Positions 409 to 59,270 of a DNA stretch of 64,000 nucleotides are shown one piece after another; position 1 is the first letter of the stretch; each line of letters opens with the position of its first letter. The stretch spans positions 6,244,288 to 6,308,287 of the forward strand of contig NC_092676.1 of the NCBI RefSeq assembly GCF_964355755.1. Direction: 5' to 3'. A program made the translations under genes and the position numbers. This stretch comes from Antedon mediterranea (Eukaryota; Echinodermata; Crinoidea; Comatulida; Antedonidae). A model generated the notes under the pieces. It saw only the letters and a program-made list of their open reading frames with translations, did no database searches and was not told the origin of the DNA.

Positions 409-2771
409 ATGAGGTGGAAATCATGCATTACTACATTTGTTGCACTTGCTATTACGATGTTTACTTTATATACCTGTGTCAAAGGTCAGTAATTTAAATT
501 TATTTTTCCATATATGAATATATATAAAGATATTGGATAATACACCTATGATTAAAAGTAGGAATTATTCGCAGTAATGTAATAGTATGGTAGCTAGTCT
601 ATAAAAAGCGTAGCTTCTTCCCCTATACCTCCATGCCTGAGTGAAAGAAAACCAAATAATGGGATTCTAGATACAAATTAGAAAAAATGCATTTTTAAAC
701 AATTATTTTGGAAAAAAAAATTAGCTATGCTATGCAAAATACATTGTGTGAGCCCTGTTGTGAAAATGTTATGTGAGGAATTAAAAATTGTGGTCAGAAA
801 GTTTATATTTTTTATTTATTTGTTATAATATTCATTTTTTAATGTATATTTTTCAGTTCTTTTTCAAGGCTTCATTTTAGAAACCAACGATATAGTGAAA
901 AATGTTAAATTGTCCGTACCAATAACACGGAATCCAAAAAGAAGGCCTGTCTACAGCTACAACACCGACGGCCGTGTACACACCAGTAATACCACAATTG
1001 ACATTAGCAAGGAAATAGATTTATTAGAATTGGACAGAAGGATAGTTATTGCGGCAGGGTTTAGTAACAAAGAAACTTACACAGGCCTAGGAATGATAAC
1101 GTCTATTCAGGCCCATATGCCTAACAAGAAAATTATTATTTATGATCTTGGAATTAGTAAACATAAAGTTAAATCTGTAAGTTTTTATTACAAAAATATT
1201 TTCTTCTCCTAAGTTACATTATCATAATATGAGAATTCTACTTTTTTTATCCTAAAGATGGAGGTAACAAATAATTAATTTACCTCCATGTCATAAACAG
1301 CTCAATCTAACGGTAAATCAACTGCATACAGATATCATTTTTACACCAAAAACATTTCTTGCAACTGGTGTCTTGTGATGGTCAATCGACACATTTCCAA
1401 TGTGCTTGTGCAAGTTGCGAAAATATTTGTCTGGACATATCGTTCAAATTTAACGATAACAACATCATAAGCAGGCATTCTCGGGAACTTAAATTCAATT
1501 GTATATTGTAGTATTACTTATATTAGTACTAAAATAATGTAGTTGTTATTAATTTATATTTCTAATTTCAGATGAAATGGATGTGCAATGTTGAAATTAG
1601 AAAGATTAATTACACCTTTTACCCAAGTCATGTTGAAATGCATGACAACATGGCATGGAAAATACTAGCAATTAAAGTGAGTATGAGTAGTAACATGCAT
1701 ATAATTATCCTAACACTCTTGTAACCGTAAGCTTGATTCAGACGCAACACTAGGACGAGACGCAACGTAAGCGAATTGACCAATGATAAGCGACTGTAAT
1801 AATCCGTAGCTTAATTTGATTGATCAAAGATCAAATCACGTACGTTGAGTTGCGTCTCTGTGTTGCGTCTCTAGTGGGAACCAAGCATTAGCACTGATCA
1901 CAGACTCGCCACTCCTATCAAGTTACGTTTTTAGGTCACACTTAAGTTTTGTACAGAATGAGTGTTTCTTCTCTATTGTGAACGTAGTTGTATACCAATG
2001 GTTTGTGATGTTAGACCTTGTTGATATTAGTTCAGCAATGTCCAAACATTTGTGTATTTGTAATGAGTTGTGTAGTAGCCTAATGCTAGAAATAAAATAA
2101 CCAAATGAATTATTGAAAAGGAAGATGTTTTATTCCCGTCGCATATTCAAATAAAAAGACCGATTATAATGTATGATCTAAATACTTTCACTATAATTTG
2201 TTCACAGGAACTTTTGATGGAATATGGTGCTGTTTTGTTTGTTAGTCCCAAGATTCGACTCAGAGCCCCCGTAAGCATTCTCCTTCAATATGCCAGTAAA
2301 CATCATGGAATAATCGGAAAAGTAAACTACAACAACAAGACTATTGATGTAACGCATCCCAGTCTCTATCGGAAATTTGGTTTAAAATACGATATATTTA
2401 AGATGTTTCCCGATAGTCCGATGCTCTCAGATGATGCATTGCTATTTGTAAATAATTCTGCAATATATCCAACGATATTACAACCATTGATGTCATGTAC
2501 TTTGACACATACATGCATTGCACCTACTGGGTCGGTAAAACGAGATGTAAATCCAGTTGGGCAAATTCACACCCATCACTACGCGATGTCGGCTTTAACT
2601 TTGTTAATGTATCGGAACTTTAACAAGACGTGGGTTGATGATACGCATGTGCATGACGTAATGGATAAGTTGTGTCAACCAGCGCCTTACGCGTCTATCA
2701 ATGATCATCAATGGGCACATTACTGTAATCCTCCGAAGAAAGAGGTAAATTGTCACTCGGGGAAATGCTAG
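409..2771 (+). CDS. DUF1647 family protein, type II membrane, four coding exons
   Basis: Coding exons are 409-484, 857-1176, 1572-1676 and 2208-2771, giving 354 residues. All introns are GT-AG and the phases agree. An acceptor (TTTACGTTTCAG) six bases before the ATG implies an upstream non-coding exon. The N terminus (MRWKSCITTFVALAITMF) is a short basic tail then a hydrophobic segment, a signal-anchor or signal peptide. The conserved core follows: RIVIAAGFSNKETYTGLGM, PNKKIIIYDLG, then MCNVEIRKINY, AWKILAIKELL and GAVLFVSP. This matches my knowledge of DUF1647, a family of unproven function that resembles Golgi glycosyltransferases. The aromatic/acidic stretch many relatives show after GAV is replaced here by LFVSPKIRLR, so activity is uncertain. 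A poly(A) signal AATAAA lies at 2838-2843. A MITE sits in intron 3. Confidence 0.8.
1729..1888. mobile_element. MITE family B, copy 1 (in DUF1647 intron 3)
   Basis: A ~160-bp imperfect palindrome whose ends read AAGCTTGATTCAGACGCAAC and GTTGCGTCTCTAGTGGGAAC. Its interior holds GAATTGACCAATGATAAGCG. Related copies lie in NOTUM introns at 26763-26875, 26876-27010 and 27791-27974, with an end fragment near 22279-22295. There is no coding capacity, so it is a non-autonomous inverted-repeat element. Confidence 0.65.
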
Positions 2772-5539: not shown

Positions 5540-7870
5540 ATCATTGTTTATGCGGTTTATGTGTACGTCGTTCGGTTAATTAATCATGCATATGGTACGG
5601 ATGATCCTAATATTGCTTTACTTTCATTTGAAACTGAATTCAAACGACTGTATGATAAACATTTTGCAATTCAAGAGCAGTCTGCAGGAAAAAAAAATAA
5701 AGACCTGGATGACGGATGAACTCTTAAATTCAATAAAGCATAAACAGAAACTGTATTCCAAATCCCTCCGCTATCCGAATGACAAAAACATAAATGAATA
5801 TAAGCAATTCCGTAACTCCCTTAACTCTTTAATAAAATTAACAAAACGCAATTATTATGAAAAAAAAAGTTTAAGCAGCAGAAAGATAATATCAAAGGAA
5901 CATGGACAATTATAAATAGTCTCATAAAAACGAATGAAAGTAAGCATTTCGAAGAGTCCACTATAAATTGCGAAGGAAACTTAACGGATGATCCCAACAT
6001 AATTTCAAATCATTTTAATAATTTTTTTGTTAATATTGGACCTACCCTCGCCAGAAATATAGACACATCTAATGCAAATTTTAAGGATTACCTCCCTCCG
6101 CCATCCATAAATTCTTTATTTCTCAATCCTGTGACTGCTTTTGAGGTTATGGATATTGTTATGCGCCTCAAAAATAGTAAAGCACCTGGCATTGATGATA
6201 TTAACCCGTCTATTATTAAACAACTTATCCCTTTTATTTCTGAACCCCTCTGCTACATTTTCAATCTTTGTTTTGTAAATGGCACCTTTCCTGACACCCT
6301 TAAACTAGCTAAAGTAACTCCTATTTTTAAAACTGGTGACAAATCTGATTCCAGTAATTACCGTCCTATATCAGTGCTACCGATCTTTTCCAAAATACTT
6401 GAACGCCTTATTTATGATCGAACATACAATTATCTTCAAAAGAATAGTATACTTTACAATAAACAATTTGGCTTTCGTAAGAACTATAATACATCCACCG
6501 CACTTCTTCAATTAACAAATGAAATTGTTGGGGCTTTCGAGAGGGGTGATTTTGCCATTGGTATTTTCATTGACCTCTCGAAGGCCTTTGATACAATTGA
6601 TCACGATATTTTATTATATAAGTTACATACTTATGGAATCCGTGGCCCTGTATATAATTTATTCAAAAGCTACCTTTCAAACCGCAAGCAATGCACTAAA
6701 TTTAAACACACCCTTTCTGATTTTCTTCCTATTATTTGTGGAGTCCCTCAAGGTTCCCTGCTTGGGCCTCTATTATTTTTATTATACATAAATGATATCC
6801 ATAATGCCTCAAATATGTTTTCTTTTCTGTTGTATGCTGATGACACAACCCTAATTTACACTGATAAAAATATAGATTCCCTTTTTAAAATATCAACCGA
6901 AAATCTACCCAAAATTTTAACATACTTTTCTGCAAACAAACTTTCTGTTAATCTAAAGTGCTGTGGTATGGTGTTCAAAAATTCACAAATACCACTAAAT
7001 ACTAGTACTTTTAAACTAAAAATTAAAGATCAATTAATACCGATTGTTGAAAAAACTAAATTTCTTGGTGTTTATCTGGACTGTAAGCTAAATTGGAAAC
7101 ATCAGATTACACAAGTCGAAAACAAAATATCCAAAAGTTCTGGTATCATATATAGATTATCATCTTTCATCCCTCAAAACATACTCCGGATTCTTTAATG
7201 TTCACTAGTCCTCCCTTACCTCACTTACTGTAATATTATTTGGGGTAATACATACCCGTCCTACTTAAACAAACTGTTATTGATCCAAAAGAAAACCGTA
7301 AGATACATAGCAAATGCTCCTCCTTTATCCCATTCCAATCCTTTATTTTCTTCATTTGGTCTTCTTAAAATTCAGGATATTAACCATCTTCAACAAAGTG
7401 TTTTCCTCTATTCATGGCTAAACTCGATCCTGCCATCACACTTTGATGATTTATTTAGTTTCAATCTTAATTTTCGTATTCCTTTTTTTTAAAACTACTT
7501 CTTTTAAACATAGCATTAAGTTCACTGGTCCTAAACTTTGGTATAACGTACCAGTTAATATAAAAAGTGCTTTGTCTAAGAAGACGTTTTTCTTTTAAAT
7601 TGAAACGGCACCTCTTATCTAGTTATGTTTAATTATCCTTTCACTCATTGTAGTTTTGATATTTAGTCTTTTCGGCACCCCGAATCCATTTCTGTTTTTG
7701 TCCTGTTTCCGGTTCCCGTGTTGTCCTGTTTTTTTTTCAGTTTCTATGGGCTGCCTTATACAAGCTTTGCTTTTTAGGAATGTTGCCCCTCTTATTTTAA
7801 TAATTTTTACTGTTAATTTTTATTTTCTATGAAAGACAAGAGAAATAAATGTTACTTTGATTGATTGATA
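5540..7870 (+). mobile_element. LINE B: CR1/L2/Jockey-like retrotransposon, nearly intact RT
   Basis: A 5'-truncated non-LTR element. From about 5590 the frame is the endonuclease-RT linker (KTWMTDELLNSIKHKQKLY), with frameshifts near 5700 and 5870. From 6131 to 7198 the RT is open: AKVTPIFKTGDKSDSSNYRP, FIDLSKAFDTIDHDIL, GVPQGSLLGPLLFLLYIND, then LLYADDTTLIY with the catalytic YADD at 6833-6844. One stop at 7196-7198 separates it from the C-terminal piece (7199-7490). The element ends near 7870 with TTTGATTGATTGATAA, a TTGA microsatellite typical of CR1/L2 tails. The endonuclease domain is absent. It is younger than LINE A but cannot be autonomous. It fills the gap between the DUF1647 and GT92 genes. 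Confidence 0.9.
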
Positions 7871-8091: not shown

Positions 8092-9405
8092 TTATAAATG
8101 TTTACATTCTTCGTCACGGATATCGCATCCACGAATTTGTTTCCATATTTTCAACATACTTAAATCCTTAACTTCATAACGTCTACTAAAACCATAGTGT
8201 AAAGGATTTGAGGATCTGTAGTGAGTGAGACGAACTTCATTTAAAGGGTCAAGGGTCAATGTCTCACCACCTAATTTTACTCCGTGTATTTTGAAGTAAT
8301 GCACATTTTTAGGTCGAATGATACATTTATCGTGCCCCATATTTAATGGATCTGGATTTGAAGCTCGCCAGCGATTCGCTTCTATTGTGGTATTTAAATG
8401 AAGAAATTTCTCGTGTTTTTTACGTCCGAAAAACCAACTTTGCATTTGAAGGCATGCGATATTCCCCGACGTATAATTGGCTATGTAGTCTGTTAAAAGT
8501 GGCTTATCTGGATTCATTGGTTGTACAAATTCATCGAGATCTACTTTTAGTATCCATTCTGATCTATGCTTATTCCGCCAAACACAGTCATTCTCATGAG
8601 CTATTTGTACTTCTAAATACGTTTTCCATGGCGTGTGATCATGTGACCACGGAATGACTGATACAAAATCGTTGTCTATATACGTTTTCAACACCTTTGG
8701 CAAACTCTCTCGTTTAGAATTGTCGTAAATGTAAACATGGTTTACTCCAATGTGACGATAGTAGTCCAACCAAGTCGGGAAAAACCTATCCATGTTTTTT
8801 GCCATGGTACAGAGTATCAAGGGATGCTTTTCCTTCTTTGTTAATGTCTTGTGAGAGGAACATATAGGAATATTAATATATGCGGCAGTTGGAAAAGTAT
8901 TTCTTCGTAAAGAGACGTTAAACATTTGTTGATGATACGCGGATGAAGACGAGAATTGATCGGGAAACGGACAGGTGATAACAAGTATATATTGTGGAGT
9001 TGCACCAAAACTACGAGCATCTTTTACAATAGGATCCGTCATTGTTTTATCTCCGTTCGGAAATTCACATATAAATGATTGTTCACTCCATTTCTCACCA
9101 CGATATGTAATTCCGACGAATACGACTTGATTATCATCGTAATCGGCAAATACCGAGTGTATTATTGGCATGTGATCACATTGAAGCCTGTTTTTGATAA
9201 AACAACTTGTATACCTTTCAATTGTACCTGTTTTGCAGTTTGAAGTCACATCAACACCATGACGTCGTTCGGTTGATATAAGTCTTCGTACTTGTTGATA
9301 AACTATAGCAGAATTATCCCAAAGTATCCAAGTAACAACGCAAGATATAAATATCAATAGTTTAGCAAACCGTTGTAATGAATTTCTTCGTTTATACGAA
9401 AACAT
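8092..9405 (-). CDS. glycosyltransferase family 92 protein (DUF23), single exon
   Basis: 437 residues in one open frame. Residues 1-12 are basic, 13-30 form a hydrophobic signal-anchor, and the rest is the lumenal catalytic part, the topology of a Golgi type II glycosyltransferase. GT92 hallmarks seen: PLILCTMAKNMDRFFPTWLDY (starting near 195), VYIYDNS (224-230), WILKVDLDEF (284-293, holding the acidic metal/nucleotide-sugar motif), WFFGRKK (324-330) and THYRSSNPLHYG (394-405). The family includes C. elegans GALT-1 and vertebrate C1GALT-unrelated DUF23 proteins, several of which add galactose to glycans; the donor and acceptor here cannot be told. Length is usual for the family. The lack of introns is common in expanded invertebrate GT92 sets. 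A poly(A)-like TTTATT (AATAAA on the minus strand) lies at 7934-7939. Confidence 0.92.
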   Translation of the reverse strand: MFSYKRRNSLQRFAKLLIFISCVVTWILWDNSAIVYQQVRRLISTERRHGVDVTSNCKTGTIERYTSCFIKNRLQCDHMPIIHSVFADYDDNQVVFVGITYRGEKWSEQSFICEFPNGDKTMTDPIVKDARSFGATPQYILVITCPFPDQFSSSSAYHQQMFNVSLRRNTFPTAAYINIPICSSHKTLTKKEKHPLILCTMAKNMDRFFPTWLDYYRHIGVNHVYIYDNSKRESLPKVLKTYIDNDFVSVIPWSHDHTPWKTYLEVQIAHENDCVWRNKHRSEWILKVDLDEFVQPMNPDKPLLTDYIANYTSGNIACLQMQSWFFGRKKHEKFLHLNTTIEANRWRASNPDPLNMGHDKCIIRPKNVHYFKIHGVKLGGETLTLDPLNEVRLTHYRSSNPLHYGFSRRYEVKDLSMLKIWKQIRGCDIRDEECKHL

Positions 9406-9760
9406 TGTGATTGATTTCCAAAATCACTAGTAGGTGCAAAAATGGCTTTTGATAGTGTGCTATTGCTTATTACTTCCATTGTATTGTGACAATAGACTTA
9501 GGGTAAAGCATGGTTCGTGGTTAAGGGAGATCAAATATTTTGACTATCTATAGAATATAATAGTATTAGGTTTTTGAATAGAATTGTATAATGTAATGCT
9601 TCAGAAATTTACAACAATCCTGCATAGTGTGTGTAATTGGTAGCCTCAGAATATTAGTTAGGTTCTAAAAACAGGCTTAAAAACGTCATAGCCTGGTTTT
9701 TTTTACAGGAATAAAATAGTCAAAAAGAAACAGACAAAAATTAAATTTGTAAATAAACTT
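9406..9760. other. intergenic, GT92 5' flank to CPOX 3' end
   Basis: About 350 bases between the GT92 start and the CPOX poly(A) signal. I see no ORF, repeat or clear promoter motif here. Confidence 0.5.
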
Positions 9761-10287: not shown

Positions 10288-18797
<8,510 letters not shown>

Positions 18798-23900: not shown

Positions 23901-26900
23901 AAGTTCTGTAGGCGGGATTAGACTAACTAGGTTGATTGTTAACTGAGCCTCGTCATACAGCCATTGTACGATGTATACGGGCGCTGGAAATAACAATATC
24001 AATATTGCACTTGTTAGTTTACAGTGCGTAGTTAGTAGTACTGTACAGTATCGAAATGTTCACTTTTCAACTACACTCCAAATTCACTTTGATATAATTA
24101 AACCGTTAAATCATTTTACCATTCGTAGTAAAAATGATCACCTCCACAACTTACGTGATGATTAAAACAATATTTTCTTCACACACACAATAATTATTGG
24201 CAAGAATTTAACAAATCTCGTCAAACGGATAACTTACTTCTTAGTGTTTGATAAATCCTAAATCCAAAGAAACATCTCCATTCATTTCCAACTCCATACA
24301 TGTCCAGGCAGGATGTTGGCACTGAACTACCCCAAAGCCTAAATAAATAACAAATTTAATATCAAGTATCATCCTTGCAATTGGTTAATTTTGTCGTGCG
24401 TGGTTTCCTCCAATTTCATATGAATATCGCGCGACGGAATCCCGCCTCCTGTAAAGTCTAAACTGCTCTACTCGGTCGTGCTACCAAATCGATCTAATAT
24501 CCCCTTAACGTGGCCTAGCATTTAATTCACGATGAAATGGTGATGCTAAATATCTACATTTAAACGATAATCGTACATACGTGACTCCTTTCGATATTGC
24601 TTCAGCAGGTTTACAGAATATTGAGCTATCGCATCTTGTCTCTTTCAGTTGTTCCATGTCCATAAACCACCCTGAATCAACCAATCCACGTAACTCCACG
24701 TTGCTCCCTACAGAGGTTAACCAATCACTAATACTATCCAAATTTAGCAACACTCCCGTTCCTCCAGCACTAGTGTAAACAGAGAATTGTACATCAAATA
24801 TACATTTATCATTAAAACTATGAAGTAGTTTGAAAGGATAACAAGCGTTTGTTTTACGTAGCCCTTTTGCCAAATTCTGTCAGGAAAAGTATAGGAAAAC
24901 AAATGCTTGCCAAACTCTGAGAGAAAAAGTATAGGAAAACAAATTCTTGCCAAACTCTGACAGAAAATGTATAGAAAACAAATGTTTAACCAAACACTGA
25001 CAGAAAAATATAGGAAAAATGTTTTGCTAAACTCTGACAGAAAAAGACAGTAGGAAAAACAATTTTGTCAAACTATGAAAAACAAGTATAGAAAAAAAGT
25101 TTGGCCAAAACCTTACAGAAAAAGCATAAGTAAACTGTTTTGCCAATATCGGACAGGAAAGGAATAGAATGTTTGCTAAACTCTGACAGAAAAAAGTATA
25201 AGAAAATAAATATTTTACCAAACCCTTACAGAAAAAGTATAGCAAAACTGTTTTGCCGACTCTGATAGAAAAAGGTATAAGAAAACTAATATTTTACCAA
25301 ACCCTTACTGAAAACGTATAGGAAAACTGTTTTTCCAACTCTGACAGAAAGTATTGGAAAACAAATTGTTTACCAAACACTGATAGAAAAAGTATAGGAA
25401 AACTGTTTTGCCAAACTCTGACAGAAAAAGTATTGGAAAACAAATGCTTTACCAAACACTGACAGAAAAAGCTCAGGAAAGATATTTTGCCAAACTCTTA
25501 AAGAAATAGTATAGGAAAAAATATGTTGTCCAAATTCATCTTTCCCTGTGGCATCGGGTGTTACGCGAGTGAACCAGAAACAGAAAACAGATTCGTTCAT
25601 GCACAAAAACAACACCTTACCTGCTTCCAGCAAGAACAAGTTGTTTTGCTCCTGAGAGACCGAGAGGTAAAAGTTCACGGAGCACTTCCTTTATTATCAA
25701 AGATCCCATAAATGAATAACCTACAAAAGGAATGATTGCAATTATTATGTTGATCTTTCATAATATTAAGTCATCAACAATCAATCATTACATGATGTAA
25801 GCCTATATATTTCATCAGTGTAGTACACATTCTTCGGTGATCAGGCTTCAACTGATCATGATCAAGTCAGTAAAGATATACCACCATAACGTGATCTTGT
25901 AAACCACGTCAAAGAAACATGACTTAATACATTAATATTAATAATAATAATTATTGATCTTTCACAATATTAATTAACAATCAATCATTACATGATGTAT
26001 ATTTCATTAGTGTTATTATTTAGGCCGGTACACATTTTTCGTTGATCAGGCTTTCACTGATCATGATCAAGTCAGTCAAGACTTACCACCATAACGTGGT
26101 CTAGTAGAGCACATCTTAGAAACGTGATTTAAATTAAAAATGAAATATAATCATGATTTGATTTAGTATTTCCAAGTCATTGAACCGTATTTCCCCAACT
26201 TTCATGCAACAGGCCTAGCATAAATAGATCTACGGTAACCGATTTTCTTTATCTGAAACTAATCAGGATAACTGATCTTACTTAACTTACCTGTTTCGGA
26301 CGTTAACTTAGTCCCACTCCAGACATCACTTGAACAGTACGGTATCATACTACAAGAAACACGATAAATAAATAAGAGATTAGTCAGTAATCTCAAAATC
26401 GTATTCTCAGAGATCAACTATATAGGTCTACTTTAATTTTTCATTTCATTTGGCCCACTGAATAAAATCTCTCATTGGAGAAGATTTAGAAAGGATTAAT
26501 CATTTAAAAAATTCGTTAAATAAAAATTAAATTGAAAATTACGGTAACGTACACAACATTTGCATTCCACCAAATAGGATTATTGACAGGATCAGCCGAT
26601 AAAATTCCAGAACCTGGATTAAAACAAAGTTGTAAATAATTAATGATTAATGTAACCCTGTGAGGTAACAAAAAATTCGAAATTGTACATTGTTGAATCA
26701 TCATTCAGAGTTTCTTGATAATTAAATTCCAATCAAATATATCTGTATTGAGATTGAGTTCGATGTTCACTAGGACGCAGCGAATTGACCAATCACAAGC
26801 GAAAGATCGCTTGTGATAGGAAAAACGTTGCGCTTACGTCGTTGCGTTGCGTCCAAGGTGGGAACCATCATGCTTAAAGCTTGGTTCCCACTAGAAAGTA

Positions 26901-38700: not shown

Positions 38701-41700
38701 GGCTTAATTGTAATCATGTGCCTCCTTGCGTAGAATACCCACTTACCATAGTACCATCAGCAATTCTTTCAGCTTTCAAGTTGGCATTTGATGCCTTTTC
38801 AAAGCACTCACTGTCAGGTCCATGTGGTGTCATCATGCTATGTAACGTGCCACCTCCAGACCTGAATCCTTCCTCCTATCATGAAATTAAATTAATATAA
38901 AGGCTAAGAATGCAATATACAACAAACGAGGCAGAAATTTAATTTTTGCAAATGTTGTGTCTATTTATTTCTCTTTTATACTGGGTGATTCTTCAGTACA
39001 CGACTGTTCTCCTAGGGCCCAGTAGAAGGGCATGATTAGTACAACGGGAGACAATCCAAGTACTTAATTTTGTACATGTGTAATGTACTACAGTATATAT
39101 ACACAGGACCAACAGCTTTATTTCCCATCTGAAGGGTTAGGGTTAGATTGAGTTGTTACAATAGTTTATGACTGGGAATGCATGGACCACCACAATGAGG
39201 TAAATGTGTATTTTGAAGTGTGACTTAGTGGGGTAAACTCAGCCTATAGTATGTAATAAGAGATTTCTCATCACCAGATATAATGTATAGTTAGTACCTA
39301 CCTTAGCCTCATATTTGCCTTTGATAAGGCCCATAAATTCACTCATACAATTACGATGATAGTATGGAGGCCTGAATGTGTGCTCTTGCACGGACCAACG
39401 CGGTGGGAATATAACAAAGTCTGCTATTGCCACGCCTGCTGTCTCTGACTGGCAAGTGAGCACGGTAAAGATTGATGGATCCTATACAAAAAACATATTA
39501 AGAATATTGATTGTATTATATATTTATACTGGGTGACCTCTTCAGTCAAAAACTGGTCTCCCAGAGGGCCCAGTTATGATCAGTGGATGTGATGTACTAA
39601 TACACCGGGGTAACCCCCTACTCATCTCGAAAGATGTACTAGGTTCTTAAAAGTGGACATGAGCTACACTGGACCTACGGTTTATAGTCCTTATCCAAGA
39701 AGACTCAATATATTGAGCCCTAAAGAAATTTTCTCTTGATAGGCTCTGTGACCGTCGTCTCCAGCTTGTTCTGAAGTTTGGGAGGAGTGTCCATGAAAAA
39801 TTTAGTAATATTATCCCCAATACCCGTGCTGAAGCGACAGGTAGATCTCTCAGAAACGCAAACAAAATATCCCAAATTAAATGTAGAACAGAAAGATTTA
39901 AGAAATCCACACTCCCATTCCTGATTAACAATGACCTTATAGTGCAATAATATATATATATGAAATTTGTAATTTTGATAGATAGGCCTACGGATAATTA
40001 ATAATTTTACTCGCAGTTTTTAAATTTGTAATTGTATATTCTTTATTTTTTTTAATGCATTTTTGTATATATATATATATATTTTTATATTGGATGTTTG
40101 TGTAAATTTTGCTCGTTTTTGATATATTTTTTATGTTTATATTACTGGACGCAATTCAGTTTTGTACTGCCATGTCTTTGTTTTTAATAAACCAGAATAA
40201 ATAAATAAATATTACTGTATGTTAACTCTTTCATATAACAAAACTTTAGACACTGTTTGGTGTGGGAGTTTTACAAGTCAATGCAAAAGAGGTATTATAG
40301 TTGTGCTAGCTTAGTACAATTTTCTATTTTCTTATATTTCATCATTACTTTGTTTCGTTTTTTCAATTCAATTCAAAGAACATTTATTAACGTCCAAAAA
40401 AACTAACAAAAAACAACAATGGCAAGAGATAATAAAAAAAATGGACGAAGGCAGATCCCAGAAAGATGTGAATCTTAGTTGGCTTATAACAATATTGCGC
40501 CTGTGTTAGAGTGTGATGGTTTATGGTTCTTTAATTTTAATAATGAAATACTTACCGCATGGTCAAATGCCACTGCATTGATTACCATAAATTTGTCCAG
40601 ATCATACTTGTATGGTGTATAGTTACCATGCCAACCAACAACATCAAATGGAGAATGTCCCTGTAAAGAGAAAATTATTGCAAATTTTAGCTATTATATA
40701 TAATAATATTACACATTTCAGTATCACTTTATTGTAGAATATTCATATAGTGCTATTTTTTGATAATTCAACCAGGGAAGCGTTACCAAAAGTAAAATTA
40801 ACCTTTCACCCCCTTTTGAAAATAAGTTGGCATTTTGAATAAATGTTAACATATCATTGTACATTTTATAATAGTACCTGTTGGGCCTCGAACATTTTTC
40901 CTTGGAATTTGTTAATGATTGTGCATTGTATCTCTTTATCCTCAAACCAAGCTACAGGCGTTAAGAAGTCCCGAGGGTTGGCAAGTCCATTCGCACCTAT
41001 GAAGAAGAGAGTTATTGGCTAGTGAGTTAGAGTTCATGTTTATCCATCTTATGTGTGCTCTGTCTTTATTTGCCTATGTCTATTTGTCAGGAAACTTCAA
41101 TTGCAAATTTTAAGTTGTATCTTGTTTAATTTTCTGGCAAAAACGACACAAATCAGAAAACTTCCTCAGCTTTCCAAGACAGTTTCATAATCCTGGTAAA
41201 AAAGAGTAAAAAATAAAAAAAATAAAATAAAAAGCGTACCAATTGGGCCAAGATCAGGCAATGTGAAATGTTTATTGTATGTTTCCAGTATGTAGCCTCT
41301 AGAGGGCTCACTAACTTGTACTGAGAATCTCATGCCTTGCTGTATAACACATATCTCATTTGGTTTAATGGTCATCTTCCCAAATTCTGTCAGAATTCGG
41401 AGAGTACCTTTTTGAGGAACTGAAATAAATACAGAAAGAAAGGATAAACTTATTTTGTTTTATATACATTTCCACTGTAATTGAAATATAAGCCTGATTT
41501 CCACTAAGTGAATCTATTTGAGTTAAATCTCCCAGGAATTTTGTTTTCCTAGCTTACGACGATTTTTGCCCTTTTTTATGAAAAAAATTACCCTCTGTAA
41601 CATTGTGGCTGCGTGCTGGTTTTAAGAATTGATAACATTTGTCAATTATTACTATGTACAAAGTTTGAATTGAAATGTGTTTTAGTTACACTAAGTAAAT

Positions 41701-51779: not shown

Positions 51780-53162
51780 TAATAATAATAATAATAAATG
51801 AAAACTTATATAGCGCCGGTATCCTCCACCCATGTGGCGCTCATGGCGCTTTGTGCATTAACAACGTGCGAGAACATCAGCGAATAGCGACGTCTTTAGG
51901 TTGGTCTTGAAACTGTTTAGACTAGTTGAGCATTTAACTGTTGCTGGCAAGCTGTTCCATACACTTGCGGCCGCAACGTAAAAAGATCTCTGACCCCACT
52001 GATTTTTCGCTCCTACGCTCTTGAAGAAGGTTTTGTGACAATGATCGTAGGCCTCTGCGGGATGATTCGTAACGATCCACAAGGTCAGATAAATCAGGAG
52101 CACTGTCATTTAGGATCTTGAATACAAACAACGCAAGTTTGTACTTAATACGTTGTTGAACAGGCAACCAATGCAAATCCATCAGGACAGGAGTTATGTG
52201 AGCGTTTGATTTTGTATAAGTTACAATTCTAGCTGCCATATTTTGCAAGCGCTGCAAACGTTGTATTTGAGATTTTGGTATGCCAAACAACAAGGCATTA
52301 CCAATGTCAATTTTAGAAGTGACAAATGAGTGTAGGCCTACAATCAATTCAGCTGTTTTCTTGTTAAGATTACCGCGAATACGACCAAGGTTCCTAATCG
52401 ATATGCATGCTGCTTTGGATACAGTTGTTATTTTGTGCTTCCATAGTGAGATTACTATCCAGCATGATTCCCAGATTCCGGACCACCGATGAGGGAGCGA
52501 TGTTAGAGTTTCCGATTCTGATATGTGTGATGTTGATTTTGGAGATGTTACATTTAGACCCGACGATAATAAACTCTGTCTTTCCATCATTCAACTTTAG
52601 GTAATTTGTTGTCATCCAATTGCGAACATCTTCAATACCGGCTTCCATCTTACTGATTGCTGCAGCAACATCCCTTTGCACTGGATTTACTGACACATAA
52701 ATCTGTGTATCATCTGCATAGAAATGGAAATGTAGACTGTGTTTGCGAATAATGTCACCAAGGGGAAGCGTATAAATGGAAAACTGGCCAGGCCCAATTA
52801 CTGACCCCTATGGTACACCATATTCCAGGCAAGCTTCATCTGAGAATGCATCATTGATACAGACTAGCTGACGTCTTCCTGTAAGATATGACTGGAACCA
52901 GTTAAGAGCAACACCATTTATGCCAATGCGATTTCTCAGACGGGTTATCAGTCTTTGGTGATCAACTGTATCAAACGCTGCTGACAAATCCAACAACACC
53001 AATAGCGTTATTTTCCCATCATTCATTCCTTGTAACAAATCATTCTGTACCTTTAAAAGGGAACTCTCCGTGCTATGACATGCACGATATGCCGACTGGT
53101 AATTCTCATTTAAATTATGCTTTTGAAGATATGGAGTAATGCGTGATGTCACTACACGCTCC
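51780..53162 (-). mobile_element. LINE C: decayed Jockey/CR1-like RT, minus strand
   Basis: In order on the minus strand: TSRITPYLQKHNLNENYQSA, VLLDLSAAFDTVDHQRL and NWFQSYLTGRRQLV, then CLEYGVP followed by a stop (53152-52808). [20 protein letters not shown], carrying an intact YADD core, follows near 52700. Then come [18 protein letters not shown] and [14 protein letters not shown] (to 52394), a frame change, and RLQRLQNMAARIVTYTKS with the C-terminal LHWLPVQQRIKYKLALFVFK (52590-51934). The 3' end is GGCGCTATATAAG then a TTA microsatellite. 5'-truncated with several stops and frameshifts, hence dead. Its words differ from LINEs A and B, so it is a separate lineage. Confidence 0.88.
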
Positions 53163-54769
53163 AGAGTCTCCTATTTGACTGTCAATCTCGGCCGATATTA
53201 TAATCAGATAATCGTTGAATTATGATCAAAACAGTCCATAGTAAAGTTTTTGTTTGTAATACTAATAGGAAACAATTTGTTCACACTTTAATGTCCCTTT
53301 GTACAATTTATCACTTGTTGACATCTAGGCTTGATGAAGTCACCTCCAGACTTGACATTAGCAATAAAATTAACTAAAGTGACAGAAATTGAGTCTGTTT
53401 AGTAGTCTAAAATTGGCTTTAATATTATTTAGACATCATTTTCATTTAAATTATTTAATAAGCACATCATCTTTTACAGATTAAGTATTTTTTATTTTTC
53501 AATTTCAATTGCACAATTATATATCATAGTATGAATTCTTTTTGTATTTTACTTCAAATACAAAAGTTATTCACTTCTGTAAAAAAAATGATCTACTTAT
53601 AAAAAGAGAAAAGAAACGTTTACTTTTAACCAAAAACCATTGTCTGACAGACAATTTAAGTATTTTTTGCTTTAAATTGAATTTTTTCAGCAGGTAACTA
53701 TTTTTTGGTTAACGTGAATAACTATTATGTGACAATAAAATGACACACTCAAAAAAAAAATTGAAAACAAATTTTTTTTTCAGGAGGACAATATAATTTA
53801 TCTTTAAAACTATTCAGTACGTCAACAAGCGAGCGACGTTTTTTGTAAGAAATATTTCTTGTTTCTAGTTTGTTTAAATATATCTATTTATGGAATACAT
53901 AAGAATATAATATCATAATGTAGATACTCATTAAGTTGTGCGTTCATGATATTGATTTCTACTCCCAGGAGACCAACGGCGGCAGAACCGTATCATACAA
54001 TGGTTTTAAGTCTATGCTCACTTTTGTGGACATTTCTTGTTGTGTATCGTGATATTTTTTCTCTTGCACCTATGATGTTTACATTATTTTCAGACTGTTA
54101 GATAGTTACACTTGCCATTGTTTGCTTTTCATTGTTTTCATTGCCATTTGCCTTTCCTTTCATCCATTTTCACATGCAATTCGTTCAGATCATTTGCGGT
54201 AGTGCGATTTGAGTAAACTTTTGTCTTTTGAGACCATATTTCATTGCAAGTTTGTTTGAGTAATGAAACAGTTTTAGTGATTATATACAATAATAGTTCG
54301 ATAGCTGTATTGACACCAGATAATTAATGATTCAATCAATCAGTAAAATTTTTAAAATTGTTGACACAACGCCCACAAGACAGCGGTAGGCATTAAAAAC
54401 ATGAGTTTGAATAGTGTTTAATGCAGAATGGCAATTTTACAAACCAAAGACAGACCAAGTAAAAAGCACGAAACGATGCTAGATTCTAGTCACCAACATC
54501 ATCTGGTCCTGGGCATTATTGGTTAATTTTCATCCGTTTAAAAACTCTTTCAATATTTGTTTATTCTAAACTGATGCTGTTATGCATTTTAAATTCTTGT
54601 TTTAATCATGGACCTATAAACAAGATAATAATAATTATGTAATCATATAGGGAAGTTAGAAGTTTATTTATATTTCTCCATGGTTTTATTGACAGCAGCT
54701 GTGTGCTTTAGATAGGATCGGAGTAGGCTAATGCTAATTGTTTGATCTTTCCGCTTATAAATTAAAAGT
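53163..54769. other. gene-free AT-rich DNA
   Basis: No coding signal. 53560-53830 is a copy of a dispersed repeat seen again at 61500-61745. The rest shows nothing recognisable. Confidence 0.5.
53560..53830. repeat. dispersed repeat E, copy 1
   Basis: Shares, in order with 61500-61745, a GACAGACAATTT or GGCAGCCAATTT block, TTTGCTTTAAATT or TGTGCTTTAAATT, GATAACTATTAT or GAATAACTATTATG, and AGGACAATAT or GGACAATATATC. Class unknown; no ORF. Confidence 0.6.
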
Positions 54770-55870: not shown

Positions 55871-57628
55871 ATGTACCTAACATTAGGTATATTGTACCTG
55901 GTTCTTCCTCCTGCAACGTCACTGGAATGGGCTATCGGAAATCTAATCAGACGCCAGTCTATTGCTGACGAGATGACGATGTGCGAGACGGGGATATGCG
56001 GCAGTTGTCAGTTGGTCTGCGGTTAGTATCTGTCTATAATTATATTGACGACATCTGTGCTTCCCCACCACCTCCCTTTTTAGGTGGCAAATATGTGAAT
56101 ATCCTTATACAGTCAACTCTTCCCATATTTATAATTTGTTTTTCCATTTTCTTTTTTTTTTATTTACTGTATACATGTTAAACATCTCATTGAGACTGAT
56201 ATAAAAGAGATAAATTAAAGTTCAGGTTAATCATTGTTAGTAATGATAATAATGACACCACAAATACTAGTAAAACAACATCGATACGCCAACACATTAC
56301 ATATTCCACAATACGTCTATTTTCGGGTGAAAATTTCCATTAAATTCTGTTATGTTCACTGAATAACATAGTTTGTCATCCGACATCTATCGACGAAAAA
56401 TGCGTATGACGAGGATTTTATTTTATTAATGTGTGTTATGCTTTTTATAATAGCAACGGAGAAAGATATATGTCATCGTACTGATTTAACTGATAAAGTA
56501 CGTCTTCATGAAACGAAGATATGGCATGACGGTTGTCCTACCGGGGGCAAAGAAGACCCTGGCCCGAATTGGCGACTTGACATCATTACCTTAGGTAAAT
56601 TTGTTTATTATGCCTACTTGTTGTAGCTTGCATATAATAAAAGGAAAAAAACCTACTTGTTAAGTGTCTGACATTTTCAGAGGCAGAATGTTTATTTGTT
56701 GTCTTAATTTCTCATTATTTATTTGGTTGATTTATATTCTGGGGACGGTGCGCCTCTGAAAATTTCTGACGCTTAACAAATAGGTTTGGATGTTCTCTTA
56801 CGTTTTCAGATGGTTAGCACACAACTATTCTGAAGGTTTTCTTTATTTTTCAGTTTGCGTAGGTAATATTATGATTATGTCGTTTCTGAGTGCCAAGTAT
56901 CGTGCAAACGTGGATTTTCCAGGTATTTAGAGTATTTTCTATTCATATTTAGTATCTCTTTGCAGTCGATAGGTCTCTAATTAAATGTGTTTGGGTAGTT
57001 TAATCATGGAGTATCGACGAAAAAGCGTATGACGAGGATTTTATTTTATTAATGTGTGTTATGCTTTTTATAATAGCAACGGAGAAAGATATATGTCATC
57101 GTACTGATTTAACTGATAAAGTACGTCTTCATGAAACGAAGATATGGCATGACGGTTGTCCTACCGGGGGCAAAGAAGACCCTGGCCCGAATTGCCAATA
57201 TGACATCATTACCTTGGGTAAATTTGTTGTAGCTTGCATATAATAAAAGGAAAAAAACCTACTTGTTAAGTGTCTGACATTTTCAGAGGCAGAATGTTTT
57301 TTTGTTGTCTTAATTTCTCATTATTTATTTGGTTGATTTATATTCTGGGGACGGTGCGCCTCTGAAAATTTCTGACGCTTAACAAATAGGTTTGGATGTT
57401 CTCTTACGTTTTCAGATGGATTAGCACACAACTATTCTGGACGTTTTCCATTTTTGCCTGTTTTCGGTAATTACTCAATGGTTTAATGTTAATGCATTGT
57501 ATTATTGCTCTTATTAATATATATGGTGTAACTTCATGTTGTTTTTTAAAGACCGAAATTTGGCCTCCCAAAATGTTATTCTTAACAATTTACCCTTTCC
57601 ACCCATTAGGCGGAGGAGCCCCGGTTAG
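55871..57628 (+). CDS. unrecognised predicted secreted protein, six phase-1 exons
   Basis: I do not recognise this gene. Exon model: 55871-56021, 56454-56594, 56854-56922, 57077-57217, 57416-57466, 57552-57628, giving 209 residues. Every intron is GT-AG and every one is phase 1, with frame kept throughout, which is hard to get by chance. It starts with a signal peptide (MYLTLGILYLVLPPATSLEW) and has a cysteine cluster (MCETGICGSCQLVC). Exons 2 and 4 are a duplicated module with DICHRTDLTDKVRLHETKIW and DGCPTGGKEDPGPN, differing only near the end (NWRLD against NCQYD). Exon 3 adds VCVGNIMIMSFL, exon 5 NYSGRFPFLPVFG, and exon 6 ends PPIRRRSPG. A dibasic RRQS follows the signal peptide. A secreted or peptide-precursor role is inference. 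The last exon is the least certain. Confidence 0.5.
56648..56787. mobile_element. 140-bp MITE, copy in first duplicated unit
   Basis: Inverted ends of ~38 bp: AAACCTACTTGTTAAGTGTC against GACGCTTAACAAATAGGTTT, then TTTTCAGAGGCA against GCGCCTCTGAAAA. It lies in the intron after exon 2 of the secreted-protein gene. Confidence 0.75.
57254..57393. mobile_element. 140-bp MITE, copy in second duplicated unit
   Basis: Almost identical to 56648-56787 and at the same place relative to exon 4, so it was carried along by the duplication and not inserted independently. Confidence 0.75.
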
Positions 57629-58784
57629 CGGTTAACTCTTGACAGCCCAACTAATGTGTTTTCCCAAGGACAATTTATAAATAACTAAACTTTGTCACCA
57701 CCCATAAGTGTGTCTGTTCAATTCCCATTGACCAATGAACACCAATGTAACTGGACCTGAGTTTCTTGCTATTCGACCTTGGGTGTGCAAATTACACAAT
57801 TCATTGATGTAAGGTCTTTTTAGACGGTGGGGCATAGACCTTGAAAGAGGCCTAGAAAGTGGATTTTGTGATCTCCTCCTAAGGATTGGGATGGATGATA
57901 TTTTTTTTTATGTATAGTTGATATGTATCTAATTAATAATTCAGTTGATCCCGCTTCCAAAACATACGCATTAAGTGACGTTTTAGCTGCAAAAAAAATC
58001 GTATTTTGTACATAACGAAATACATAAGAAATAGCGCCCTCTGTTGACGTAAATTGCAATTTTAATTGCAAGTTGCTGTATCAGCAGATGGACTGTATAG
58101 CGTTTTTTTGCTGAACAATGTTAATACTAAATGATTCCAATATAAAAATTGACTGCCAGCTTAATCAATATCAACTTCATCAATTGATAAAAACGGTAGC
58201 CAATACATTTGCCCTGTACAATTATTAATAAATAAGGCTAATGAACAAGGCTTTTATGTTGGTTTGTCCCAATTTTATTTCTAAAATCTTTTTTAATATT
58301 AATGCAGTAGACAAACAGTATTTACACTGACATGCAATCAACATGAATTATTTCAATTTTTCTACAATGTTTCATAGATGATTTTTCTTTCTTTTTTTAC
58401 AATTACACAAGTATTAAAAACGATAAACAATTTTACAATGTTTTTTTGGATAGTCTACCAATATTTTTTTTTTTCAAAAAGACTAACTTATAAAACAATG
58501 TGATCTATATATTTGTATTCAGCCTCATACAGTACACTATATTTACTGTAAACAATGTTACAATAGTTTCACAATATAATGTTACTAAATTAGTAATGCC
58601 AGAAAATCCATTAAATAATTTCAGAGATATACCTGGAATTTGTTGCAAATAAAGAGAATAATAAAGAGCGGCACGTTGAAAAGAAAATGTTAATCCTACT
58701 ACTTCAACCAAACACACGAAAAGATATACCACGTTACTCATCAGCTATAGTGCAAACCCTGCGTCCAGTCGATTGCACGAGAGA
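57629..58784. other. gap between secreted-protein gene and zinc-module ORF
   Basis: AT-rich, no supported gene. Small minus-strand ORFs at 57820-58071 and 58505-58741 have no recognisable domain. Confidence 0.5.
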
Positions 58785-59270
58785 ATGGAAATTCCTGAAT
58801 GTTGTGTTTGTTTACAGAGCCTTAACAATGTCACTCAGCTATGGAAATGTAATCGATGCAATTACATCTGCCATACTACCTGCTTAAATTTATGCGACAC
58901 ATCGCAAACATGCTCACATTGTGGGTTTGTTATGACTGAAAACTCTCGAATACATCGGGAATGCCAAATTTGTGATGATCCCCTTAGGCAACAATGGACA
59001 TGTAATACATGCCGCCGCATCTTTCATACTGCCTGCATTGCGGAATGGTGTGAGGAATCGCAAACATGCCCACTTTGTAGGTGCGGTATCGAAACTACCA
59101 TCCCCCAACTGTGGGAATGTGATGGATGTGAGTCAATCTTCCATACAGCCTGCATTGAGAACAGGTGCAATGCGTCACAAAGATGCCCAATATGCATCGA
59201 AAGAAATCATGAACGCTTGTTAGCGGAATCTGACAAAAGTTGGATCAGAACATTCGATTTCTATACCTAA
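58785..59270 (+). CDS. triple C4HC3 zinc-finger-like protein, intronless
   Basis: 161 residues from ATG at 58785 (MEIPECCVCLQSLNNVTQLW). Three tandem modules share the plan C-x2-C, a Trp, C-x2-C, x4, H-x2-C, about nine residues, C-x2-C. Module 1 has WKCNRCNYICHTTC; module 2 CQICDDPLRQQWTCNTC, IFHTAC and TCPLC; module 3 WECDGCESIFHTACIENRC and RCPICIE, whose first cysteine pair (in CPLCRCG) appears to be shared with module 2. The ligand order is PHD/RINGv-like (C4HC3), while the W-then-CP-x-C ending resembles RING fingers. A ubiquitin-ligase or adaptor role is inference. The frame stays open some way upstream of the ATG without a clear acceptor, so this could be one exon of a longer gene or a retrocopy. 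No homolog is recognised. Confidence 0.6.
   Translation: MEIPECCVCLQSLNNVTQLWKCNRCNYICHTTCLNLCDTSQTCSHCGFVMTENSRIHRECQICDDPLRQQWTCNTCRRIFHTACIAEWCEESQTCPLCRCGIETTIPQLWECDGCESIFHTACIENRCNASQRCPICIERNHERLLAESDKSWIRTFDFYT

Follow-up and report, generated by a model that had tools for sequence, protein, structure and literature searches.

A candidate single-copy gene for a small secreted cysteine-containing protein in Antedon mediterranea, with a recently duplicated exon and a transposon at its predicted 3' end

The question raised by this locus is whether six short open segments that can be joined by splicing form a gene for a secreted protein or only resemble one. The window is the 64,000-nucleotide stretch of Antedon mediterranea DNA analyzed here, and all positions refer to it. 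The original prediction described an unrecognised secreted-protein gene of 209 residues. Because it supplied only the end points and the length, we derived the inner exon boundaries anew. The rebuilt model (Table 1) has six exons that join into 630 nt, encoding 209 residues followed by TAG, and since both its length and its ends agree with the prediction, it is very probably the same model. Each of the five introns has GT-AG ends and is in phase 1, and this part of the prediction was reconstructed exactly from the sequence. Scored with a generic animal splice matrix, the model's donors rank within the top 3-6% of the window's GTs; among the acceptors, two are in the best 2% of the window's AGs and the other three only in the best 15-19%. 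The observation is thus confirmed in part, and its interpretation is likewise supported in part. Our preferred reading, with a confidence modestly above even, is that the locus is an orphan gene present once in the genome and encoding a small secreted protein with six cysteines; in this reading one of its exons was duplicated recently, and a transposon has invaded its 3' end. To the existence of a real gene at the locus we would give, judging from its sequence, a probability of a little over one half.

Table 1. Features of the candidate gene and its repeats (positions in the window)
Feature	Position	Strand	Description
Exon 1	55871-56021	+	ATG, signal-peptide-like N-terminus, four cysteines (CETGICGSCQLVC); coding score, GC, single-copy
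Dispersed repeat in intron 1	56125-56225		DNA search of the genome, many matches at 72-89%
Tandem duplication, first copy	56388-56833		Exon 2, next intron, frame-broken exon-5-like start; pairwise alignment
Exon 2	56454-56594	+	141 nt, phase 1-1, two cysteines, TEKDICHRTDL...NWRLDIITL
MITE-like 139-bp stretch in intron	56649-56787, copy 57255-57393		36-bp inverted ends; copied with the duplication
Exon 3 of the earlier model	56854-56922	+	Inside spacer between block copies; weak, optional
Tandem duplication, second copy	57012-57440		Pairwise alignment
Exon 4, the exon 2 copy (exon 2b)	57077-57217	+	Differs from exon 2 at 5 of 141 nt
Exon 5 of the earlier model	57416-57466	+	Good acceptor; start within duplicated block
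Exon 6 of the earlier model	57552-57628	+	Transposon from 57604; TAG 57626-57628 within repeat
Transposon end fragment, diverged	57604-57814		32-bp terminal inverted repeat CATTAGGCG... (CATTAGGCGCAGGAGCCCCGGATAGCGTTACG)

The evidence begins with exon 1. In-frame stops lie upstream of its ATG, which therefore opens the frame. The segment carries a candidate signal cleavage site between ATS and LEW, compatible with the (-3,-1) rule, and a dibasic RR at residues 27-28. A signal-like hydrophobic N-terminus is present as predicted, but among the window's ATG-started frames of 40 or more codons, 17% are equally hydrophobic or more. This figure favors the main rival explanation, which we consider rather unlikely. 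In it there is no protein-coding gene here, and the model is a series of open frames that line up by chance in AT-rich DNA and look longer than they are because of a recent duplication nearby and the end of a transposon. Weighing against a chance chain is the frame-specific coding signal of exon 1, which, under a coding model trained on 29 receptor genes from the same genome, scores +10.9 bits, the best of its six frames and within the top 2% of stop-free noncoding null segments. The local GC content argues in the same direction, since its peaks are sharp and limited to exons 1, 2 and 2b (0.52, 0.49 and 0.47, respectively) while the flanks are mostly at 0.25-0.35. So do the six cysteines found downstream of the signal-like start, four from exon 1 and two from exon 2, with the spacing C-x4-C-x2-C-x3-C-x6-C-x20-C; the count becomes seven if exon 2b replaces exon 2 and nine if both are used.

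The remaining exons score lower. Exon 2 obtains +4.4 bits, again the best of six frames and per base about the level of the window's known genes, a score that 20% of the stop-free noncoding null segments reach. Its copy, exon 2b, scores 0.8 bits, which is the null median (reached by 50%). The score of exon 3 is positive, at 5.7 bits, but the exon is short, and exon 5 has no clear coding signal by the same measure.

Exons 2 and 4 are near-identical and lie in a block of about 440 nt that is present twice. The intron parts of the two copies differ at only one of 260 aligned sites, indels aside (the largest is 17 nt), so the duplication is recent. The doubling is unlikely to be a false haplotype duplication made in assembly, because the 178-nt spacer between the block copies occurs once in the genome and does not recur downstream of the second copy. 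The MITE-like stretch within the block has no match elsewhere in the genome. Of the five differences between exons 2 and 2b, four fall within 6 nt and turn W-R-L into C-Q-Y, while the fifth is synonymous; the cluster could be the product of one complex mutation or conversion event. When the differences are counted singly, the changes in the exon exceed those in the intron (Fisher P 0.02), and when the cluster is counted as one event the excess is gone (P 0.28). By either way of counting, exons 2 and 2b give no indication that purifying selection has acted on them after they were duplicated, and exon differences that are not fewer than the intron differences speak for the chance chain.

Since exon 4 was copied from exon 2, the six exons and their junctions are not independent: those flanking exon 2 and those flanking exon 4 are copies of one another, and the last junction is doubtful. 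As a statement about the model, the description of a gene made up of phase-1 exons throughout is formally correct, but the recent duplication and the exon that ends in a transposon inflate it. At the model's own splice thresholds, a five-intron same-phase chain of the model's length was found in none of 312 tiles. Once the duplicate is removed, the remaining three-intron same-phase chain has equivalents in 3 of 400 window tiles outside the locus. We take the de-duplicated chain as modest evidence for a gene, and the existence of those equivalents as a point in favor of chance; on its own the chain evidence is weak because the earlier reader had scanned the whole window.

The claim that the protein matches no family was borne out by our searches. 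Pfam returned no domain or credible relative for the model protein, and sequence searches of the PDB returned no credible relative. A weak match to a Dr-adhesin (E 0.23) was below its cut-off and was rejected. Searches of the 354-Mb genome with exons 1 and 2, using E values up to 10 and a back-translated WHDGCP pattern, found no second locus for either exon; the sole match off the locus in the paralogue search had an E value of 2.2, which is at chance level. Structure prediction, which had been proposed as a check of the protein, was run on the exon 2 module only, from two near-identical sequences, and with a mean pLDDT of 51 it was uninformative. For exons 1 and 2, then, an unrecognised secreted-protein gene is the best reading, given the signal-like start, the coding signal, the GC peaks and the lack of relatives in these searches.

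The last exon is a weak point of the model. It can be joined in phase and provides a stop codon, but it runs into a transposon and its coding score is negative (-2.3 bits for the whole exon and -1.7 bits for its unique, non-transposon part). When the 18-contig, 354-Mb assembly was searched at the DNA level, this identified the fragment listed in Table 1 as part of a dispersed repeat, and an alignment with 19 other copies places the start of the repeat exactly at CATTAGGCG, with unrelated DNA to the left. The ends of the element have 110 exact matches genome-wide, 55 per strand, mostly arranged as facing pairs a few kilobases apart. One copy was read whole; it is 3.38 kb long, has 32-bp terminal inverted repeats and contains no transposase-like open frame. 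Judged by this structure, the dispersed repeat is a non-autonomous DNA transposon. The fragment in the window has about 85% identity to most copies. Most copies of the family are nearly identical, and for this reason the family has probably been active recently.

The last eight codons and the stop of the model lie at or inside the transposon end. In addition, the acceptor of exon 6 is the weakest of 19 phase-1-compatible downstream acceptors above the cut-off, and the strongest of them, at 57610, is made by the transposon. Exon 6 as modelled is probably not a real coding exon. Because the last exon is partly transposon and uses the weakest acceptor, the model does not fix the true 3' end of any gene present here. 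A last exon that is partly transposon again favors the chance chain. The transposon end at the 3' end and the lack of a clear terminal exon also favor a second rival, in which the locus is a decaying pseudogene or what is left of a secreted-protein gene that used to be larger, disrupted by the duplication and the transposon insertion. The exon-5-like start in the first block copy, which lacks one base relative to the second and so is out of frame, fits such decay as well. We regard this second rival as improbable, given that exons 1, 2 and 2b are open and that no intact paralogue that could have been the source was found elsewhere in the genome.

If the preferred reading of a single-copy orphan gene is correct, the transcribed and spliced product would be a small secreted, disulphide-bonded protein or a peptide precursor. 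Exon 1 would encode the signal peptide, with a probable cut after Ala-Thr-Ser at residues 15-17, and the short stretch that ends at the Arg-Arg pair could be trimmed by a proprotein convertase. The six cysteines would be enough for three disulphides. The recent tandem duplication would have added a second copy of exon 2, and the symmetry of exon 2 would let this copy be spliced in or left out with the frame intact. The true last exon would be either an exonised piece of the transposon or an exon located elsewhere.

The original prediction related the phase-1 exons to exon shuffling, a process that in animals usually works with class 1-1 modules (PMC8001218). The locus resembles the secreted proteins made of such modules (PMC8001218) in its signal-like start, in modelled introns that are all phase 1, so that the exons between them are of class 1-1, and in having a symmetric exon whose duplication or skipping leaves the frame unbroken. 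It differs from them in that Pfam recognises no mobile domain and the genome search finds exon 2 in no other gene, and in that nothing is repeated except for one tandem copy, made locally and very recently. Genes whose proteins carry signal peptides also have phase-1 introns more often than introns of any other phase (PMC1626468). The locus has this phase but not the mark by which shuffling is recognised, a mobile domain that other genes share. Nothing at the locus shows exon shuffling, as neither exon 1 nor exon 2 was found elsewhere in the genome and no domain is recognised; the duplication of exon 2 is what a symmetric exon permits and is not evidence of shuffling.

Another comparison is with single-copy orphan genes for small cysteine-containing secreted proteins or peptide precursors, which are a kind rather than a family. 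The locus shares with them the signal-like start, the short stretch ending in Arg-Arg, the six cysteines and the absence of detectable relatives; it differs in being known here from sequence alone and in its doubtful predicted 3' end. For the last exon, transposon-derived exons such as the exonised Alu elements (PMC4731929) offer a parallel, since the modelled exon enters a dispersed mobile element (from 57604, with the 110 matching ends) that supplies an acceptor-like site and stop codons. The element here is the end of a DNA transposon and not a retroelement, and its splicing-in is only predicted.

A further and rather doubtful possibility is that the locus is a young single-copy secreted-protein gene under remodelling, in which a recent duplication of a symmetric phase-1 exon, with clustered amino-acid changes in one copy, would be accompanied by a new C-terminus and stop taken from the terminal inverted repeat of a DNA transposon. 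If the gene is real, it provides a clean case of a symmetric secreted-protein exon copied in frame while the intron copies are still almost identical; otherwise it is one more orphan gene candidate of the sort that invertebrate genomes hold in numbers. The locus also shows how a duplication close by and a transposon at the end can inflate a gene model that looks impressive for having six exons of a single phase.

The rest of the window contains several other features. Directly downstream of the candidate gene, at 58680-59270 (+), there is an open frame with RING/C1-like zinc-finger repeats. On the reverse strand we found a glycosyltransferase 92 at 8092-9423 (-), a pectinacetylesterase/Notum-type exon at 24505-24879 (-) and a homogentisate dioxygenase exon at 41166-41459 (-); a weak DUF1647 match is located at 829-1212 (+). 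Fragments of LINE-type reverse transcriptase, read from the translations, lie at 5861-7198 (+) and 51934-53170 (-), and a 21-bp unit (about GTGATATACCCAAATATGGTA) forms short tandem arrays at 10450, 17349, 28392, 35036 and 35946.
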